DNA of 47,963 bases from a virus: the IMG/VR virus record IMGVR_UViG_3300043446_001867, positions 1 to 47,963 of that record. One strand, given 5' to 3'. A program made the position numbers and the translations under genes. The notes under the pieces were generated by a model. It was not told the DNA's origin. It was given only the letters and a program-made list of their open reading frames with translations, and made no database searches. Below are positions 13,209 to 45,739 of this stretch, piece by piece (within the stretch, counting starts at the first letter, position 1; every line of letters starts with the position of its first letter).

Positions 13209-14261
13209 TTAGCCCCAGGGTGCAAAGTTAAAACTAGCCTCTGGGGTAAAACTAAAAGTGGCCTCTGGTGTAAAACTAAAGACACCAAATGCTGGAGTAA
13301 AACTAAAGACACCAAATGCTGGTGTAAAACTAAAGACACTAAATGCTGGTGTAAAACTAAAGACACTAAATGCTGGTGTAAAACTAAAGACGGCAAATGT
13401 TGGCATAAAGTTAAACGATGGCTCTGGTGTAAAACTAAATACGCTAAATGCTGGAGTAAATGAAAACACAGAAAATGCCTGTGGAGTAAAACTAAACACT
13501 CCGAACGTTGGCATAAAGTTAAATGATGGTTCTGGTGTAAAACTAAAGACTGCAAATGCTGGAGTAAAACTAAACACTCCGAACGTTGGCATAAAGTTAA
13601 ATGATGGTTCTGGTGTAAATGTAAATACGCTAAATCCTGGAGTAAAACTAAAGACAGCAAATGTTGGCATAAAGTTGAAGGCTGGAGTGCCACAAACCTC
13701 AACATTTACATCGTCCATAGTTTCTGTTTGAGTTTCAGTTCCAGCAATACAGTTTCCTGATACTAATGTATATATTGTTCTTGTTCTTGTTCTTGTATAT
13801 GTTCTATGTTGTCTTCTATATCCATCTGCTTCACATTCACCCCATGGACCCCATGGGCCTATGTCCCAAGCAGACCACTCTGACCATGCTCCTGGCTGAG
13901 GACACTCTATCGGTCCTGGTGTAAAAGAAAATACTCCAAATGGAGAAAAACCAAAAACAGCAAATGGAGAAAAACCAAAAACACCAAATGGAGAAAAACC
14001 AAAAACACCAAATGGAGAAAAAGAAAATGAGTGAAGTTTATAGTTAACAGTACTTTCGTAATCTAATAATGTATTTGCTGCAACATCTTGTGATTTAACT
14101 AATCCAGTTAAAGATTCATTATCTTGAACCTCTTCTATTTCTGTTCCATAATTAAATCCTGCATTCTGCAATGATTGTCTTGCTTGATTTTTTGTTAATC
14201 CAAGTAGGTTGGGTACTGATCCCATACCTTTTGCTAAAAATGTCCATAATGAATTTAGCAT
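13209..14261 (-). CDS. Fibre protein: PASTA + TSP1-like + aromatic octapeptide repeats
   Basis: 350 aa mosaic. Residues 16-78 fit a PASTA domain (VPNLLGLTKNQARQSLQNAG, then a terminal beta strand), a fold known to bind peptidoglycan or muropeptides. Residues 79-116 are FGFSPFGV octapeptides like those at 5.1 kb. Residues 117-190 (WSEWSAW, GPWGPWGEC, TRTRTRT, four Cys) resemble a thrombospondin type-1 repeat. Residues 193-350 are about 18 further units of the form AFxVFSFTP interspersed with FNFMPTF, ending FNFAPWG. Role: adhesin for an actinobacterial wall, inferred from PASTA and location. Confidence 0.78.
   Translation of the reverse strand: MLNSLWTFLAKGMGSVPNLLGLTKNQARQSLQNAGFNYGTEIEEVQDNESLTGLVKSQDVAANTLLDYESTVNYKLHSFSFSPFGVFGFSPFGVFGFSPFAVFGFSPFGVFSFTPGPIECPQPGAWSEWSAWDIGPWGPWGECEADGYRRQHRTYTRTRTRTIYTLVSGNCIAGTETQTETMDDVNVEVCGTPAFNFMPTFAVFSFTPGFSVFTFTPEPSFNFMPTFGVFSFTPAFAVFSFTPEPSFNFMPTFGVFSFTPQAFSVFSFTPAFSVFSFTPEPSFNFMPTFAVFSFTPAFSVFSFTPAFSVFSFTPAFGVFSFTPAFGVFSFTPEATFSFTPEASFNFAPWG
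13212..13685 (-). repeat. Coding tandem repeats, FSFTP type
   Basis: 24-27-bp units encode xAFxVFSFTP, with an FNFMPTF variant recurring about every third or fourth unit, implying duplication of larger blocks as well as single units. Confidence 0.88.
13914..14027 (-). repeat. Coding tandem repeats, FGFSP type
   Basis: Four to five 24-bp units encode FGFSPFGV-like octapeptides, nearly the same peptide unit as at 5122-5400 but with different codons, so the two loci share protein sequence more than DNA sequence. Confidence 0.85.
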
Positions 14262-20860: not shown

Positions 20861-21614
20861 AACTATTGAGGGTTTTGATAAAATAATTATATCTCCAGAT
20901 ATGGACGGTTTTATTTCGGCGCATTTTATAAATAGATTTAACGGCGCAAAAGTAGTTGGTACATATGACTCAAATAAGTTATGTCTTTCAGACGGGGTAA
21001 AAATAGAAGAATGTTTATTCCTTGATTGTGACATTAACAGGCCAGATATAGTGTCGCTCGGAAATCATATGCGACTTATAAATGATAATATGTCTAAGAG
21101 ATCGTTCAATCCTAATATACATTTCGGCGTTACGAACTATAAAGACAAATATCCATTTGCTACTGCATATCTTTTGGCTTTTGCGTTAGAAATAGAAACA
21201 TCAGCACAAGACATCATACGCATGGCTTACGCTGACTCAACTTTAAGAAATATGATTTCATACAGCGATAACATGCGAAATTGGTCAGATAAGATGCCTC
21301 ATCCTTCTGTTAAGTATGTGATCTATAACACAGAATATTCAAAGTCTTTAGATGATGAAATGAGATTAGAATACGGAAATGATCAATCGTTTACATCTTG
21401 GCGTTTTGGAAAAGAGCGGTATATAAAAACAATCAATGAAGCCTTAATAAAAGAAAATGTTCCACATGAAACATTAATTACTGGTATTAAATATATCAAA
21501 GACAAGGTTGGGTATAATACTGTTAATAGATATATGAATGATATTTTCTCATATGCAGAAACATACCAGGGAGAATACTCAGTAACATATATGGAGGAAA
21601 CCGAATGGAAATAA
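20841..21614 (+). CDS. DHH-like phosphoesterase
   Basis: 257 aa from ATG 20841 with GGAAGG upstream; it overlaps the SGNH gene by 20 nt. IIISPDMDGFISAHF (D20, D22) resembles the first metal motif of DHH phosphoesterases, followed by LDCDIN (D62, D64) and GNHMR at 74-78. DHH enzymes cleave phosphodiesters in oligonucleotides or cyclic dinucleotides. The classical DHH triplet itself is absent, so family assignment is moderate. It is coupled to the zinc-ribbon gene that follows. Confidence 0.55.
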   Translation: MKKEILKTIEGFDKIIISPDMDGFISAHFINRFNGAKVVGTYDSNKLCLSDGVKIEECLFLDCDINRPDIVSLGNHMRLINDNMSKRSFNPNIHFGVTNYKDKYPFATAYLLAFALEIETSAQDIIRMAYADSTLRNMISYSDNMRNWSDKMPHPSVKYVIYNTEYSKSLDDEMRLEYGNDQSFTSWRFGKERYIKTINEALIKENVPHETLITGIKYIKDKVGYNTVNRYMNDIFSYAETYQGEYSVTYMEETEWK

Positions 21615-21823
21615 CACCAGATAATAATGAAGATGTTAAGGTTTGGGATTTAATTAATCCTAATAAACCAAGAAGTGAACAGGAAGAGGCCAAAAGGCGA
21701 TTAGATATCTGTATGTCTTGTGAACACCTTAACAAGCGTATGGTAAAATGTAATAAGTGTGGTTGTTTTATGAAATTGAAAACAACACTGCAAGGCGCAA
21801 AATGTCCAATAGGAAAGTGGTGA
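21605..21823 (+). CDS. Zinc-ribbon micro-protein (72 aa)
   Basis: Six cysteines at 36, 39, 49, 52, 54 and 67 (CMSC, CNKCGC, CPIGKW) form a compact zinc-binding domain seen in small proteins of many T4-like and actinobacterial phages. The start overlaps the phosphoesterase gene, with GGAGG upstream, so they are co-translated. DNA or protein binding is plausible; no specific function is known to me. Confidence 0.8.
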   Translation: MEITPDNNEDVKVWDLINPNKPRSEQEEAKRRLDICMSCEHLNKRMVKCNKCGCFMKLKTTLQGAKCPIGKW

Positions 21824-21826
21824 AAT

Positions 21827-22015
21827 ATGTATAGAGAAGAAGGCGTTGCTTTAATGACAAAGACTGTAAATGACTATAATCGAAGAATGGCTGCAAACGC
21901 AGGTGTTCCGATGGATCAAGTAGAGTCTGTATTAGCGCAACAGCAGGATCAGTTAAACGCTGTTAATGGGATGCTGTTTGACACTTTGAAGGAAAACGGC
22001 TATATACGTGACTAA
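21827..22015 (+). CDS. Hypothetical helical protein (62 aa)
   Basis: It follows the zinc-ribbon gene by 3 nt. The product is polar and mostly helical with a Gln-rich centre (VLAQQQDQLNAVNGMLFDTL), possibly a short coiled coil. No family recognised. An internal ATG at residue 10 is an alternative start. Confidence 0.65.
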   Translation: MYREEGVALMTKTVNDYNRRMAANAGVPMDQVESVLAQQQDQLNAVNGMLFDTLKENGYIRD

Positions 22016-22598
22016 TAGTTCTTTATTTTCTGAGTTTGAGCCTATTGTTATTAGCAATGTGTTCAGCGAAGAAGAAATTAAAGAAATTTATGATTCCCGC
22101 TCAAAAAGTGAGAATCTATTGGTTGACGAAAGTTGTGGCTACATAACTAATACCAAACCATTTAGTGAAAATATAAGAAAAAAAATTGTGCAGATTGTTC
22201 AAGACAATGTGCCAATAAAAGTTAAAGAATGGGGCAATCATATGCCTAGGTATACTTTAGAATCTAATAGTAAGCCTAGGCTTCATCCTCATTATGATGT
22301 AGGGTTAGATCAAGCATCGTTTACTTTAAGTATTCAACTTGATCATACTCTACCGTGGACAGTTTATGTTGGACATCAAGGATATGATATTCAAAGAAAT
22401 ACTGCTGTCTTATTTTCTGGATCTCATCAGATACATTGGAGACCAGATATAGAGTTTGGGCCAAATGATTATTATGACATTATAGTTGCTCAAGTTGTAG
22501 AAGATACAGAAAACCCACTTATATTAGACGATTCTCATAGAGAGAATATGTCAAACCAAGTGGGTTCTTTTGTTGCTAAGTATTTTACTTTGCAATAG
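22008..22598 (+). CDS. 2OG-Fe(II) oxygenase, HWRP subfamily
   Basis: 196 aa from GTG 22008, overlapping the previous stop. Metal motif H95-Y-D97, distal H143 in HQIHWRPD. It belongs with the genes at 22.9, 35.7 and 45.1 kb, all of which share P-H-x-D, a central W-x-V-x-V strand, NxAVLFSG and H-W-R. This is a phage-type oxygenase group whose substrate I do not know. It ends the 19.9-22.6 kb operon and converges on a minus-strand gene. Confidence 0.8.
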   Translation: MTNSSLFSEFEPIVISNVFSEEEIKEIYDSRSKSENLLVDESCGYITNTKPFSENIRKKIVQIVQDNVPIKVKEWGNHMPRYTLESNSKPRLHPHYDVGLDQASFTLSIQLDHTLPWTVYVGHQGYDIQRNTAVLFSGSHQIHWRPDIEFGPNDYYDIIVAQVVEDTENPLILDDSHRENMSNQVGSFVAKYFTLQ

Positions 22599-22857
22599 GG
22601 AAATTAGCCCTTGTCAATGCATCCTTTAGTGGTGGATCTAATTCATCATAAGATTTATTAACTACCCGCCCATCATTAGAGTTGATATGAACAATTTCAG
22701 TTTTCTTTAATTGTGTATTATCAGATGGATCTGCAAATGTCTTGATTACAATTAGATAGTCACAAAAATCTTTAAAAATAAAGTCTTTTGCCTGAGCAGT
22801 TCCCTCTTGAGTTGTATACCAGTCAGTTTCTACAGAACTCATTTTTTCTAGTGCCAT
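22585..22857 (-). CDS. Hypothetical protein (90 aa)
   Basis: GGAGG lies before the ATG and TGGTATACT 20-30 nt further up. The product is acidic and mixed alpha/beta (DYLIVIKTFADPSDN, IVHINSNDGRVVNKS) with no cysteine motif or membrane segment. It is monocistronic and flanked by two oxygenases of the HWRP subfamily. Not recognised. Confidence 0.65.
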   Translation of the reverse strand: MALEKMSSVETDWYTTQEGTAQAKDFIFKDFCDYLIVIKTFADPSDNTQLKKTEIVHINSNDGRVVNKSYDELDPPLKDALTRANFPIAK

Positions 22858-22912
22858 AATGGCCTCCTATCATCTTTTAAAGTATACCATAATCATATGT
22901 TATAATCTTTAT

Positions 22913-23599
22913 ATGGCAAATATCGATCCTTTAAAACCACATACTGAAAAATATTTTTTTACAGATGAAGAGTATGGAATGATTTATGACACAATAAAGA
23001 AGACAATCGATATTGGTATTGCCGAAGCAAACGATCCATGGCTACATTTTCGTAAAAACACAAACAATGGATTTTTAGTTATATTTTTTAGTGAACGTCG
23101 TAATGGACCACTACCAGGATTGCCTAAACAAGTAGAAGATAAAATTAGACAAAAGTTTGAAGAAAAGACTGGTGGTCCTGTAGATCATATAGGTGTGTTG
23201 TGGGCTAGATATACACCTTTAAGTGGTGAGATTCCATCTTTGTACCCGCACCAAGATAGATCAGAAACACATACAGCATATATGTTTACAATTGAACTAG
23301 ACAAAACCCTTGATTGGGATTTCTATGTTGAAGATGAGAAGTTCCAAATGGAAAAGAATCAAGCAGTTTGGTTCTCTGGTACAAACCAAGCACATTGGAG
23401 ACCAGATAAATATTTTGGTGATGAAGATTATTATGATATCTTGTTATGTCAAACACATCATGGAGAAGATGAAAATCCTTTATCTGAAGAACATTATTTA
23501 GATGGTGATGATCACGCTACTGAGGTTGCCCAAAAGTATGCTCATCTTCTACCTGAAACACTCTTGAAGGCAACTCGTCTTCAGGGTCCCTGCCAGTAA
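22913..23599 (+). CDS. 2OG-Fe(II) oxygenase, HWRP subfamily
   Basis: 228 aa from ATG 22913, chosen because TGTTATAAT ends exactly 6 nt before it; an upstream ATG would include the promoter in coding sequence. Motif H113-Q-D115 and distal H161 in NQAHWRPD. KNQAVWFSGT matches the paralogues. The 3' end is overlapped antisense by a small Cys-rich gene (23517-23684). Substrate unknown. Confidence 0.82.
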   Translation: MANIDPLKPHTEKYFFTDEEYGMIYDTIKKTIDIGIAEANDPWLHFRKNTNNGFLVIFFSERRNGPLPGLPKQVEDKIRQKFEEKTGGPVDHIGVLWARYTPLSGEIPSLYPHQDRSETHTAYMFTIELDKTLDWDFYVEDEKFQMEKNQAVWFSGTNQAHWRPDKYFGDEDYYDILLCQTHHGEDENPLSEEHYLDGDDHATEVAQKYAHLLPETLLKATRLQGPCQ

Positions 23600-26538: not shown

Positions 26539-26706
26539 TTGAAATTTCAACAAACGGGTCGGCCCCTTATCCACAAGTTATCCACAATGTGAATTACGTA
26601 ACAGTTTACGGGCCTCGTGATTTTTCTCACAGATTTTCGGCGTGTCTAAATTGAAAATGTCAGTAAAAAATGATAGGCTGGAAGCCTGAAAATGAAAGGA
26701 AAACTA
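26539..26706 (+). promoter_or_regulatory. Intergenic control region with two DnaA boxes
   Basis: It holds GGTCGGCCCC (26557), two DnaA boxes TTATCCACA (26567-26575 and 26578-26586, 11 bp apart), a GGCGTGTC element (26639), and a TTGAAA-N17-TAGGCT promoter with TGTCAG in the spacer (26651-26679). Confidence 0.6.
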
Positions 26707-34523: not shown

Positions 34524-34742
34524 ATGACTATACGCAGACACAGGCTTACTGACGAGGAAAAGGTCGCTATGCGACTTGCTTCTCTCGTTTCTGACCTGCG
34601 CCTTGACATTGAGCAGGTAGGAGAGTATCTAGCACAAATCGCACCAACAGTATCGTATAATAGACTTATCACTATCGCAGAAAGCGCACAGTATCACAAA
34701 GAGGAGAAATATAATGGCGAACACCAATACAGACTTTTCTAG
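34524..34742 (+). CDS. Hypothetical helical protein (72 aa)
   Basis: ATG 34524 follows AAGGAG. Basic N-terminus (IRRHRLTDEEKVAMRLA) then helices; could be a small DNA-binding protein. It overlaps the next gene by 29 nt. Confidence 0.66.
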   Translation: MTIRRHRLTDEEKVAMRLASLVSDLRLDIEQVGEYLAQIAPTVSYNRLITIAESAQYHKEEKYNGEHQYRLF

Positions 34743-34986
34743 TCGTTGTAATATTTTGGCTGACCTTTGGCTAAACTATAAACAAGACTCTGAGTTTGGA
34801 GATTTCGTAGAATATAATGATATGGGATTGCCGTTAGCATTTTTTATTAGTCAAGAAATTATACAAACCAATGATGTAGTAACTAACTATGTCAATGAAA
34901 CTTGGGATTTATTTTTAGAGTCATTGAACACAGAAGATACTGGGTTCTCTACACTTGACGAATTATTAATGAGATTTGACAAATAG
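34714..34986 (+). CDS. Hypothetical protein (90 aa)
   Basis: AGAGGAGA precedes the ATG inside the upstream gene. Acidic, mostly helical (ILADLWLNYKQDSEFGDFVE). Last gene before the CAAACCAT array. Not recognised. Confidence 0.66.
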   Translation: MANTNTDFSSRCNILADLWLNYKQDSEFGDFVEYNDMGLPLAFFISQEIIQTNDVVTNYVNETWDLFLESLNTEDTGFSTLDELLMRFDK

Positions 34987-35085
34987 CCACAAAAGTGGTC
35001 GGTGTATTTTTTTGTTTATACAAACCATTACGATCCAAACCATTTTTTCCCCAAACCATAATAAATTCGTGTTATGATTGTTTGT

Positions 35086-35304
35086 ATGCCAAGACATTTC
35101 TATAGAATGAATTTCCCAAACCGAGCAAAGGATCATGATACATCATTGTCTAATGCCTTTACTGCCTTTACTCATATGATTGGTTTGTCAAAGTATTTTT
35201 CATTTACCCCGCTCGATTTTGACAGGGGCGCCTGGAGGGCCGAACACGAGGCGGGATCTAAAAAAGATTACGATCATACCACAAACCCCCATAATAAGCA
35301 ATAA
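35086..35304 (+). CDS. Hypothetical protein inside the CAAACCAT array (72 aa)
   Basis: ATG 35086 lies 7 nt after the -10 TATGAT, with no Shine-Dalgarno, so probably leaderless. The product is basic at the start (MPRHFYRMNFPNRAKDHD) and has aromatic central helices. No helix-turn-helix is evident, yet its position between repeat arrays makes a regulator or replication accessory role possible. Confidence 0.58.
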   Translation: MPRHFYRMNFPNRAKDHDTSLSNAFTAFTHMIGLSKYFSFTPLDFDRGAWRAEHEAGSKKDYDHTTNPHNKQ

Positions 35305-35421
35305 CAAACCATATTTCCTGGTTTTAAAACATTTTCAAACCTTTTAAAATATATTACGAAATTATCAGAAATTTCCCAGACTTTTGGCAATTTTTTCTGC
35401 ATAAATATATTACGAAGATAC

Positions 35422-35450
35422 TTGACAAACCATGGTTTTGCAGATATAAT
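35422..35450 (+). promoter_or_regulatory. Perfect consensus promoter over a palindrome
   Basis: TTGACA, 17-nt spacer, TATAAT. The spacer contains AAACCATGGTTT, so a protein bound there would block RNA polymerase. Confidence 0.78.
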
Positions 35451-35472
35451 GCCCAAACCTTAATACAATGGT

Positions 35473-35502
35473 TTGACAGATATGGGGCATATATGGTATA
35501 AG
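35473..35502 (+). promoter_or_regulatory. Second array promoter
   Basis: TTGACA, 18-nt spacer, extended TGG and TATAAG. The -35 overlaps an ATGGTTTG site. A third TTGACA at 35530 also overlaps a site but lacks a clear -10. Confidence 0.5.
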
Positions 35503-35661
35503 GGTTTGTTAGACATAGGGGTAAATGGTTTGACATTACGATCCCCGCCTTAAAAAGCGCTCCATTACCCATATCTCTCCACTATCCTCCACTTTACTCC
35601 ACATATAAAATAACAGTAAGATTTATTTTTCAAAATAAGCAATGCTATAATTAAGTTTGCC

Positions 35662-36159
35662 ATGATAAAAGACGTGTTCACGCAGCCACAAATAGATTTT
35701 ATAAACCAACTAATCTTGGATAACTATGACAAATTAGATAATCAATATGCAGAGCGAGGCAGAGAAGATATTGCTTTAACTCCTAGTGGTATATCTGCAT
35801 TTGAAAAATCAAACCCTATTGCTAAAGAAATTTGTGACCGTGTGCTTTCATATTTTGATGAGGGTATATATATTAATGCTATAACTTATGGAGAATATAC
35901 TAACAAACACAATAACCCTAACCTTCCACCACACAAAGATCCTATTCATACCAAGAATGGCCTAACCTTTGACTATCTACTAGATTCAAATGTTGATTGG
36001 CCAATATGCTTGGAAGGTGATTGTGTGAGCCTAGAAAAGAATAGTGCTATTAGTTTTAGTCCATGTGAACAGTATCATCATAGACCAGAAATGATATTTA
36101 ATGATGGCGATTATGTTAAGGTTTTATTTTTTATGCTTAGGAGCAATAATGATATCTAA
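35662..36159 (+). CDS. 2OG-Fe(II) oxygenase, HWRP subfamily (short)
   Basis: 165 aa, shorter than its paralogues. Metal motif H91-K-D93 and distal H140 in YHHRPE, where the usual HWRP has become HHRP. KNSAISFSP matches the paralogous strand. TGCTATAAT ends 10 nt before the ATG. The first gene downstream of the operator array, so possibly controlled by it. Confidence 0.76.
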   Translation: MIKDVFTQPQIDFINQLILDNYDKLDNQYAERGREDIALTPSGISAFEKSNPIAKEICDRVLSYFDEGIYINAITYGEYTNKHNNPNLPPHKDPIHTKNGLTFDYLLDSNVDWPICLEGDCVSLEKNSAISFSPCEQYHHRPEMIFNDGDYVKVLFFMLRSNNDI

Positions 36160-41109: not shown

Positions 41110-41331
41110 ATGAAACCAGGAATGATAGTAATGATAACTGATGAAGGTCAGTATAATAAAAAGGCTGCAGAAATTATATCTTCTGTAGATGATGATTTTA
41201 CGGTAAAGGTTTGTGACACTAGCGAAACAATAGTTTTAAAATCTAGTAGTTTAAAAAGAAGAAAACTGTGTGTTTGTAATACATCCAAAAGTAAACCATT
41301 TTGTGATGGCTCTCACTCTGGATTATTCTAA
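41110..41331 (+). CDS. CDGSH-type iron-sulfur protein
   Basis: 73 aa. The C-terminus C54-V-C56-N-T-S-K-S-K-P-F-C65-D-G-S-H69 is the exact three-Cys, one-His ligand set of the CDGSH [2Fe-2S] domain (mitoNEET-like). Residues 1-50 form a beta-rich SH3-like or KOW-like domain (MIVMITDEGQYNKKAAEI). CDGSH domains take part in redox sensing or cluster transfer. AAAGGAG precedes the ATG. Uncommon on phage genomes. Confidence 0.88.
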   Translation: MKPGMIVMITDEGQYNKKAAEIISSVDDDFTVKVCDTSETIVLKSSSLKRRKLCVCNTSKSKPFCDGSHSGLF

Positions 41332-42083
41332 TTCATAGTGTTATATTTTCCATCTATTACGATGCATATTTGATCTAATATATTCCTTGGCCCATTATTA
41401 AAATATAACCTTAGTCCATCTAATGTATCATGTACAACCTTTTCGTTATCCATTGTTAAGTTGTAACAAAGTGAAGCCTTTCTTGTTTTTCCTAATATAG
41501 AAATTGCTTCTTCCAAAAAGTTTGGAATTTCATCATGAAACTCTTGACCACGTTTTGCATTTCTTAACATCAAGACCATGGGGTATTTATAATCTTTTCT
41601 TTCTTCTAAAAATAACAATCTTTCTTCTTTAATAAATGGTAAGAAAGATTCAAATATAAAATTATGCATAGTTCCAGTAACTGCTACCGCAGCCATAACT
41701 ACTGATGGTCCAGGAGTAGAGGTAACTTCTATTCCTTCTAATATACATCTTTTGACTATTCTTGCTCCAGGATCAGCAACACCTGGCATTCCTTCATCAG
41801 AAATTAAATATACATCTTCTCCATTTTTTAATAGTTGCAATATTTTTTCCATATTGTGCAATTCGTATGCCTCACCTGGCTCACCTCCGTCAGAATCATA
41901 CTCTATTGATATTGTGTTTATGCTTGGCTTTTCCATTCCTAATTGAGGCCAAATTTTTTCAAATGCCTCTTCTCTTTCAATAACTATATTTTTTGCATTT
42001 TTAATATACTTATATGATCTAACAGACATGTCCTCCCAATTACCAACAGGAAGTCCAACTAAAAATAGTTTTCCATACTTCAT
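41328..42083 (-). CDS. RsmI-like tetrapyrrole-methylase-fold methyltransferase, copy 1
   Basis: 251 aa. LFLVGLPVGNWEDMSVRS, SDEGMPGVADPG at 95-106 and TPGPSVVMAA at 123-132 match the three conserved blocks of RsmI, which 2'-O-methylates C1402 of 16S rRNA. The SAM-binding GMPGVADPG loop differs slightly from the cellular GTPxISDPG. TATACT ends exactly 6 nt before the ATG. A second copy lies at 44.1 kb. rRNA, tRNA or small-molecule substrates are all possible. Confidence 0.85.
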   Translation of the reverse strand: MKYGKLFLVGLPVGNWEDMSVRSYKYIKNAKNIVIEREEAFEKIWPQLGMEKPSINTISIEYDSDGGEPGEAYELHNMEKILQLLKNGEDVYLISDEGMPGVADPGARIVKRCILEGIEVTSTPGPSVVMAAVAVTGTMHNFIFESFLPFIKEERLLFLEERKDYKYPMVLMLRNAKRGQEFHDEIPNFLEEAISILGKTRKASLCYNLTMDNEKVVHDTLDGLRLYFNNGPRNILDQICIVIDGKYNTMN

Positions 42084-42117: not shown

Positions 42118-42699
42118 ATGATAATAGACGACAATTTTTTATCAATAGAAGAAATTAAACATTTACAAAATGTTATGTATGAAGAACCAAAATGGAAATT
42201 TCCATGGATATTTAATAAATCTACAAACATAAAAACAGATAGTTATGCAATACTAGACGGAAAAAATATAATAGATAGTCCACAGTTTGTTCATATGGCT
42301 ATGTTTAATAAACAAAAACAGTCACCATTTGCAGATACATGTATATCTATATTAAATAAATTTTCCAGTAAAAATAATATTATTGTAAATGACATTGTTA
42401 GAATTAAAGCAAACATGATATTAAAAAATGGCAATAGTGGAATGCATTATCCTCATGTTGACGCAGACAAAAATCATTTAGTTTTTTTATATTATGTTAA
42501 TGATTCAGATGGTGATACAATTTTCTTTAATGAAAAATACAACGGCGACAAAATTGATAGTTTAAGTATTATGAAAAATGTATCTCCAGAATCTGGTAAA
42601 GCAATTGTTTTTGATGGCTTAACCTATCATGCATCTTCTAGTCCAGTAAAATCTGATTTTAGATGTGTTATTAATATAGATTTTATAGGAAGTTTATGA
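42118..42699 (+). CDS. 2OG-Fe(II) oxygenase, P4H-like
   Basis: 193 aa with H113-V-D115, H171 and R182, the full facial triad plus 2OG-binding Arg. FLYYVNDSDGDTIFF sits between them. TGATACAAT ends 6 nt before the ATG, so leaderless; divergent from the RsmI-like gene with only 34 bp between starts. Substrate unknown. Confidence 0.87.
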   Translation: MIIDDNFLSIEEIKHLQNVMYEEPKWKFPWIFNKSTNIKTDSYAILDGKNIIDSPQFVHMAMFNKQKQSPFADTCISILNKFSSKNNIIVNDIVRIKANMILKNGNSGMHYPHVDADKNHLVFLYYVNDSDGDTIFFNEKYNGDKIDSLSIMKNVSPESGKAIVFDGLTYHASSSPVKSDFRCVINIDFIGSL

Positions 42700-43999: not shown

Positions 44000-44149
44000 A
44001 TGTCTAAGAAATCTTCAGGATCATATAAGAGACATGATAGATTTAATCCTATACAAATTAAAGATGGAAATATTGTTCGCCTTCGTAAAGACGGAACAGT
44101 AAAGGCAGTTCTTGGTAAGTATGGCGAATATGGTAAAAATACTAAATAG
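44000..44149 (+). CDS. Basic micro-protein (49 aa)
   Basis: ATG 44000 lies 3 nt after the previous stop. Lys/Arg-rich (KKSSGSYKRHDRF, then VRLRKDGTVKAVLGKYG), likely nucleic-acid binding. It converges on the second RsmI-like gene with an 8-nt overlap. Confidence 0.6.
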   Translation: MSKKSSGSYKRHDRFNPIQIKDGNIVRLRKDGTVKAVLGKYGEYGKNTK

Positions 44150-44906
44150 TTATTTTTTGATTTGTAATTCCATCAACGACTAAGCATAAATTACCCAAAA
44201 CTTTATTATTTAATAAATACTCTTCTATATCTTTTAGCAATCCCCTTATTACTTTTTGTTTTGAAGTTGTTAAATCTATGCAAAGTACAGCACGTCGGTC
44301 TTCTCCAAAAAAAGAAATACATTCTTTAATAAAAACATCAGCATCAAAACAGTTATGTATCATATGAATTTTATCGTCACTGTCTATAGGTCTAGTGTTT
44401 GGGTTATGTAAAAGAAAGATCATTGGTGCAGGTGATGTTTGTAAAAATTTAAATTTTTCATGTCTGTCAGAGTTTGTATTAGACATAAATCCTTCAAATA
44501 TAAAGTTGTTCAGAACATTGCATACAGATGCTGCTGCTACTACAGTGGATGGGCCTGGAGTTGTTACTATTTCTATATTATTTTTTATTGCTTCTTTTAC
44601 TAATATTTCACCAGGATCTGCTAAACCAGGCATTCCTTCATCTGATATTATATAAACATCTTCTCCACCTTTAAGCAATAAAATAATTTTTTCTTTAATA
44701 TTCATTTCTCTGTTATTGTTTAAAGAAAAGCATATGTCTATTAATTCTGCACTATAATAAAAATTATTTAAATTACAATATTCCTTAAACCTGTCTATAT
44801 CTTCAACACAAATATATTTAGCGTCAGAAAAAGCGTCCAGCAGTCTTTTGGAAACATCTAAACTATTCCCTATTGGGGATCCAACTAGATATAACTTACC
44901 ATACAT
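44142..44906 (-). CDS. RsmI-like methyltransferase, copy 2
   Basis: 254 aa with the same blocks as copy 1: LYLVGSPIGNSLDVSKR, SDEGMPGLADPG at 88-99 and TTPGPSTVVAAA at 116-127, plus FIFEGFM. The two copies are diverged paralogues. It overlaps the small upstream gene by 11 nt. Two such methylases in one phage region suggest distinct rRNA/tRNA sites or a precorrin-like small-molecule role. Confidence 0.85.
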   Translation of the reverse strand: MYGKLYLVGSPIGNSLDVSKRLLDAFSDAKYICVEDIDRFKEYCNLNNFYYSAELIDICFSLNNNREMNIKEKIILLLKGGEDVYIISDEGMPGLADPGEILVKEAIKNNIEIVTTPGPSTVVAAASVCNVLNNFIFEGFMSNTNSDRHEKFKFLQTSPAPMIFLLHNPNTRPIDSDDKIHMIHNCFDADVFIKECISFFGEDRRAVLCIDLTTSKQKVIRGLLKDIEEYLLNNKVLGNLCLVVDGITNQKITI

Positions 44907-45076: not shown

Positions 45077-45739
45077 TTAGTAAAAAGTACTTGGATCTGG
45101 ATGCATATCATAATATTCAGAAAAGAATCTATTTCTTTCATGAAGTATTTGATCTTGATGATCATCATAAGGCACATCTTCTACATACTCTAAATGACAG
45201 AATATCATGTCCTGATGGCTACCTGACTTTAATTCTTTCTTTCTTCTCCAATGAGGTTGCTGTGTTCCAGCAAAGACTAGTGCCTGATTATCTTCTAAAA
45301 AGTATTCTATATCTTCTACTACAACTCCCCACTCTTCATCTGCTCTAATTTGTATGTCAAACGTTATTCTTTGTTTGTCTCTCATATCTGTATGTGGAAA
45401 TAATTTAGTCATCCATCCATACTCCATACTATATCTAGCAAATGAATGATCATCAACCAATCTGACATTATCACCCAAAGATCTTTTTACTGCTTCGTTT
45501 ATTTTATCTTTAATCCTTGGACCTAAATCTATATGCCAAGCCTTCATCCCGCCCCATTTTTGAATTTGTGTTTTTTCATCTGGAGTATTGTTTATAATTT
45601 CATATAAATGTTCTATATCTTCTTTAGAAAAAATATTATCTACTATAAATGGAACAAAGTCCTGATTTGATATAGGCTCTTGAGACATCTTTAATTCTAT
45701 ATACTTATCGTAGGCTGGCCCTTTTATTGGTTCTTTCAT
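45077..45739 (-). CDS. 2OG-Fe(II) oxygenase, HWRP subfamily
   Basis: 220 aa. H116-T-D118, distal H163 in QQPHWRRK, DNQALVFAGT and WGVVVEDIEYFL match the paralogues at 22 and 35.7 kb. TGATATAAT lies 8 nt before the ATG. It heads an operon with a micro-gene and the second RsmI-like methylase, so oxidation and methylation may act in one pathway. Confidence 0.82.
   Translation of the reverse strand: MKEPIKGPAYDKYIELKMSQEPISNQDFVPFIVDNIFSKEDIEHLYEIINNTPDEKTQIQKWGGMKAWHIDLGPRIKDKINEAVKRSLGDNVRLVDDHSFARYSMEYGWMTKLFPHTDMRDKQRITFDIQIRADEEWGVVVEDIEYFLEDNQALVFAGTQQPHWRRKKELKSGSHQDMIFCHLEYVEDVPYDDHQDQILHERNRFFSEYYDMHPDPSTFY

Follow-up and report, generated by a model that had tools for sequence, protein, structure and literature searches.

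The array of short sites and the promoter found in a 47,963-bp viral sequence (IMG/VR record IMGVR_UViG_3300043446_001867, positions 1–47,963; analysed whole and hereafter termed the window) are part of a larger, unannotated DNA control element that is present as a single copy per genome. The locus probably serves large phages related to the Stanwilliamsviridae as a replication origin, one that is coupled to transcription and assisted by DnaA. An origin fits best because the locus and its carriers combine single copy number, opposed repeats, DnaA boxes at a constant position, a tail that is noncoding and conserved, and a phage-encoded replisome. We are not aware of any earlier description of it, and the literature searched yielded neither a published account of it nor a mapped origin for this phage group. 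The origin is often unmapped in large phages that have their own DnaE polymerase, helicase, and primase; the element is a concrete, family-wide origin candidate that is recognisable by sequence, and it allows asking how such phages begin replication without a DnaA of their own.

Anatomy of the element

The window, with a G+C content of 35%, is a phage fragment that carries structural genes, a ribonucleotide reductase, and seven tRNAs; among cultured phages, the nearest relatives of this phage are Streptomyces phages of the Stanwilliamsviridae. A sequence-only reading had reported ten sites in mixed orientation at 35021–35540. The array is present there, with thirteen CAAACC cores (nine forward, four reverse) within 520 bp as compared to a maximum of four in any 520 bp of 300 first-order Markov sequences, but the count has to be corrected to seven exact CAAACCAT sites or thirteen cores. 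Outside the element, 34 cores occur in the window (~0.7 per kb). Site orientation is ordered rather than mixed: sites are forward 5′ of the main promoter and reverse 3′ of it, with two exceptions, a reverse site at 35182 inside a small gene and a forward site at 35454 right behind the −10 box. The element reaches beyond 35540 to approximately 35627 and comprises about 600 bases in total.

At its upstream end, the plus strand carries conserved direct repeats of CAAACCAT at 35021, 35036, and 35052 (35021–35059), of which the relatives L003–L005 have an extra copy. TTACGA occurs five times in the region, exclusively on the plus strand, at 35028 within these repeats and at 35268, 35354, 35410, and 35536 (35268–35541). 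Further forward CAAACC sites lie at the edge of the AT-rich stretch (35282, 35305, and 35336; 35282–35341) and near the predicted RNA start (35454–35459), followed by reverse GGTTTG sites on the minus strand at 35470, 35503, and 35527 (35470–35532). In the family, the AT content is 66–70% at −200 to 0 relative to the promoter, but the AT-rich stretch of the window, which the sequence-only reading had described, is not extreme in its duplex stability.

Distribution and conservation

The small gene, used as first query, retrieved four contigs; these have kept both the array and the promoter, while single sites are gained or lost. A promoter scan of IMG/VR with the pattern TTGACAAACCATGGTTT-N6-TATAAT identified 75 contigs with exactly one match apiece, and a second scan with the tail alone (CCACTATCCTCCACTTTACTCCACTT) identified 49 loci, 34 of them new compared to the promoter scan. 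The comparison with related phages that had been proposed from the sequence revealed, with both scans merged, an element common to 110 IMG/VR loci (window included), among which there are 78 distinct versions. In each of three long contigs read whole, the element is the densest CAAACC cluster. No isolated phage contained the element as searched by blastn, and the one match in prokaryote genomes, 19 bp on a Psychroserpens contig, is at about chance level.

The order of parts is fixed. Forward CAAACC and one-way TTACGA sites are followed by a small, probably leaderless gene, an AT-rich stretch, the perfect promoter, reverse GGTTTG sites, and a conserved C-rich tail ending with CAGTAAGATTTAT. Across the 78 distinct elements, CAAACC reaches up to 14 per kb upstream of the promoter and GGTTTG is absent at −200 to −60, while at +50 to +130 CAAACC is absent and GGTTTG, the only orientation in the downstream bins of the relatives, reaches 30–35 per kb; site direction therefore flips at the promoter. 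TTACGA upstream of the promoter is forward in 246 cases versus four reverse in the relatives. Sites are spaced by multiples of ~8.2 bp (R = 0.69 downstream and 0.52 upstream; null maxima 0.30 and 0.27), which rules out a helical period of 10.5 bp. Composition on the plus strand is skewed, with a G-rich downstream array (+0.47) and a C-rich tail (−0.74).

Promoters, palindrome, and covarying arms

The main promoter, TTGACA-N17-TATAAT at 35422–35450 on the plus strand with CAAACC over its −35 box, is the sole perfect TTGACA/TATAAT promoter (N16–18) within the whole window. It has the palindrome AAACCATGGTTT in its spacer (35427–35438, without strand), which marks the point where site direction flips; both promoter and palindrome are as originally read. 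The two additional TTGACA boxes said to overlap sites, at 35473 and 35530, are likewise present, both within GGTTTGACA. The first belongs to a second promoter-like sequence within the array (TTGACA-N18-TATAAG, 35473–35502, plus strand), whose counterpart at 5863 in contig G015 is a perfect TTGACA-N17-TATAAT promoter; the second has no −10 match.

The loci found by their tail alone are unbiased regarding the promoter, which was unused as query. A perfect TTGACA-N17-TATAAT is kept in all 49 of them, and in 47 its −35 box is covered by CAAAC, i.e., the promoter is overlapped by a repeat-like operator as in iteron-type origins; the other two loci were scored on their second promoter. The palindrome, which was central to the sequence-only reading, was scored in just 14 of these 49 loci, which were found without using it. 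It is thus optional in the family, and an essential role is ruled out. Anatomy and conservation are established, as are the distribution of one match per contig and the finding that no one gene regularly follows the element. Because the promoter is invariant yet the first long ORF 3′ of it runs in either direction among distinct elements (sense in 34, antisense in 25), the main-promoter transcript is probably noncoding.

Two arms beside the palindrome, TCTGCATAA at 35396–35404 and TTTTGCAGA at 35436–35444, the latter abutting the −10 box (both plus strand), appear in the covariation analysis to change as if base-paired. In the larger subgroup of elements, the final five spacer bases before the −10 box are complementary to a stretch that begins ~15 or 25 bp upstream of the promoter. 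Pairing is perfect in 27 of 31 distinct elements across four arm sequences (shuffled expectation 9.8, maximum 17 in 2000 shuffles). Paired cells amount to 92.6%, and the covariation score of 0.337 versus 0.096 was reached by none of 500 shuffles and abolished by sliding the partner arm. Kinship inflates such counts, but in three pairs both sides changed within the same sequence frame. The smaller subgroup, with mostly G-rich spacers, is devoid of arms. The pattern could stem from hairpins in single strands, from a cruciform, or from a protein site that coevolves.

Small gene within the element

The gene at 35086, which had been noted inside the array, is real. It encodes a 72-aa protein of an M(S)PRHF family (35086–35304, plus strand), and an ORF with this start or one close to it precedes the promoter in 58 of 76 copies (34 distinct proteins), with several others being clipped by the locus end. 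A dN/dS of 0.15–0.46 in the aligned relatives points to a genuine protein, which is conserved along with the element. Its −10 box TATGAT (35073–35078, plus strand), with TG one base upstream, lies 7 nt before the ATG; the same arrangement is found in most of the 34 distinct relatives, with a TATAAT-like −10 box a few nucleotides ahead of the ATG. The mRNA of the small gene is thus probably leaderless. The protein had no match in family searches, and its fold model (pLDDT 59, pTM 0.24) was unusable. A 90-aa gene (LADLWLNY...FVEYNDMGLPLAF; 34714–34986) adjoins the element upstream in the window; it has no match in cultured phages, and a similar sequence was seen at this place in distant relatives, e.g., L021.

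Conserved tail and DnaA boxes

The tail (35535–35627, plus strand) consists of ATTACGA, CTCCAC repeats, and CAGTAAGATTTAT, and has a mean column identity of 75% among 27 diverse elements. In 46 of 75 elements, it is followed by TGTGGATAA, the complement of the DnaA box TTATCCACA, exactly 14 nt past the start of CAGTAA, and usually by a second DnaA box 11 or 12 bp further on. DnaA-box density is 4.1 per kb at +100 to +450 as compared to 0.078 in the remainder of the loci. No adjacent DnaA boxes are present in the window-type element and 28 other distinct ones, which end at CAGTAAGATTTAT or similar. The window has tandem TTATCCACA boxes in an intergenic region 8.8 kb upstream (26567 and 26578; 26567–26586, plus strand), which may be associated with the element. 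Similar pairs are located ~8 kb upstream of the element in contigs G003 (33651) and G017 (76384), in both cases 5′ of a conserved ORF (MRSYSIEDLL...), and ~10 kb upstream in G015 (16315), which has another pair at its tail. The pair in the window could be a second initiation site. Because the window element has no adjacent box and the pair is 8.8 kb away, the true origin could also be located at the pair instead.

Carrier phages and proposed mechanism of initiation

Three contigs of 118–123 kb have most genes in common and in the same order. They encode RecA, DnaE polymerase, and primase (Pfam matches), as well as a DnaB-like helicase that was identified from its sequence and gene neighbourhood; a phage-encoded DnaA was not found. 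The DnaE shares ~55% identity with its counterpart in Streptomyces phages of the Stanwilliamsviridae. The carriers appear to be a group of uncultured, actinobacterial-type large phages related to this family. No Rep_3 initiator (PF01051) was matched in 18 records, nor was another known initiator family found; this and the other family absences reported below are not proof, because the contigs may be incomplete. Upstream of the helicase, an HTH-like protein (phrog_9440; G017 21118–21660) is conserved in the Streptomyces relatives. Its fold model (pLDDT 36) was unusable, and it is regarded purely as a candidate site-binding protein.

We infer every binding event, as well as origin activity, RNA priming, and autoregulation, in the following scheme. 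A phage initiator would bind the CAAACC octamer repeats, which have opposite directions on either side of the main promoter. RNA polymerase would transcribe from the consensus promoter through the G-rich array and thereby open the DNA, possibly leaving behind an RNA–DNA hybrid that primes synthesis. Host DnaA on the tail-end boxes, where present, would aid melting and recruitment of the phage DnaB helicase, DnaG primase, and DnaE polymerase. The same initiator, sitting over the −35 boxes, would silence the promoters and so limit firing.

It is possible, if rather doubtful, that the element represents a distinct origin class, with two arrays of ~8-bp initiator units that run in opposite directions and adjoin an invariant sigma-70 consensus promoter, the spacer of which base-pairs with an upstream arm; firing, hairpin extrusion, and DnaA would jointly open such an origin, and its initiator would be of no known Rep family.

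GC skew, another proposed check, displayed no switch at the element, either cumulatively or at fourfold sites, and support for an origin was not obtained from it; in phages, GC skew is dominated by gene direction and is thus weak evidence. Among the three functions that the sequence-only reading had offered, an origin is nevertheless best supported, given that each genome has a single locus, that most relatives have DnaA boxes at a fixed place in it, and that the gene downstream varies, whereas a partition site is unsupported and a repressor-controlled switch of the lysogeny type is weakened.

Alternative functions

The strongest alternative, which we still consider unlikely, is a gene-control switch, in which a phage repressor or activator on the CAAACC sites would time early transcription and the DnaA boxes would be incidental or titrate host DnaA. 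The sites are suitably placed, in or beside the main promoter, the second promoter-like site and, in some relatives, the small-gene promoter. However, the switch would have no fixed gene to control, and CAAACC shows little or no excess at other promoters of the genomes. Outside the element, the motif is at background level in two sequences (the window and G003) and exceeds it modestly in G017 and G015, and the number of promoters with CAAACC lies inside or close to the span obtained with permuted motifs, which supports neither a genome-wide promoter regulator nor dispersed sites of the stoperator type. A tyrosine integrase (PF00589) was not matched in 18 records (serine integrases were outside this search), and the cultured Stanwilliamsviridae phages of Streptomyces are presumed virulent (PMC10690885).

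The invariant promoter without a fixed downstream gene and the conservation of the transcribed stretch would also suit a noncoding-RNA gene, from which a short regulatory RNA comprising array and tail would be made under the control of the DNA sites. We regard this as distinctly unlikely, since the tail has no consensus RNA fold and no Rfam match and the number and spacing of sites vary among relatives in the transcribed part.

A centromere-like or anchoring site, at which a small protein would cover the 8-bp repeats and thereby position or cluster the genomes of the phage, is very unlikely. Its model would be the parS of pSM19035, which has contiguous seven-bp WATCACW units bound by the RHH-type ParB Omega, together with ParA, and which resembles the element in that its short tandem units run in both directions and overlap promoters (PMC9499535). 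The units of the element are, however, ~8 bp long and often spaced apart by a multiple of that rather than contiguous, and neither ParA nor ParB families were detected in 18 records: ParB_N (PF02195) and AAA_31 (PF13614) had no match, and RHH_1 (PF01402) had one sub-threshold match and none above the cut-off. Least likely of all is a packaging start or recombination site, which would likewise be single per genome, noncoding, and repeat-dense, but the element is internal in the G003 and G017 contigs, away from their ends, and DnaA boxes and a universal promoter are unexpected of a packaging site.

Comparison with known origins and cultured phages

As a putative replication origin, the element is known in kind, having repeats, DnaA boxes, and a promoter, and new in layout, with its opposed 8-bp arrays, universal consensus promoter, and covarying arm. 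The iteron origins P1 oriR, F oriS, and pSC101 contain DnaA boxes and have a rep promoter embedded in them. The element shares with them repeated initiator-like sites, an AT-rich stretch, a site-overlapped promoter and, in most members, DnaA boxes at one end. It differs in its units, which are ~8 bp instead of ~20 bp (the ~8.2-bp unit falls short of the ~17–22 bp of tandem iterons), in its opposed arrays that meet at the promoter, and in having neither a Rep_3 protein nor an adjacent rep gene, the only gene inside being that of the small protein without family. T4-type origins are primed by a transcript. They resemble the element in having a strong internal promoter, an RNA that need not be coding, and a G-rich non-template strand downstream; the element additionally has repeat arrays and DnaA boxes, and its RNA priming is putative.

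Phages of the Loccivirinae (BillNye, Wakanda, and others), from the same wider phage group, have a nearly gene-free, unannotated gap of 1.0–1.5 kb with two to four DnaA boxes and, in several, three TTACGA sites. This likeness is one of motifs and not established homology; unlike the element, the gap has no CAAACC array, a different motif order, and an extra conserved block. The element nevertheless directs attention to this unannotated region of cultured Streptomyces phages, in which the related question of origin activity is testable. A noncoding block of ~340 nt with RNA-like conservation was observed in the gap (L104:19400–19740, corresponding to BillNye 119400–119740) and has no Rfam match. 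A part of approximately 95 nt is also present in two tectiviruses, Forthebois (L110:1501–1598, beside the DNA polymerase gene) and RickRoss.

Other genes in the window

Among the structural genes, 13209–14261 encodes a protein that consists largely of FSPFGVF/FSFTPAF-type repeats and has no PHROG match. Proteins that we take to resemble 2-oxoglutarate/Fe(II) oxygenases are encoded at 22008–23599, 35662–36159, 42118–42699, and 45077–45739; one oxygenase-like gene is located directly 3′ of the element in the lineage of the window and not in others. Two related proteins, encoded at 41328–42083 and 44142–44906, presumably resemble RsmI-type methyltransferases of the tetrapyrrole methylase fold.
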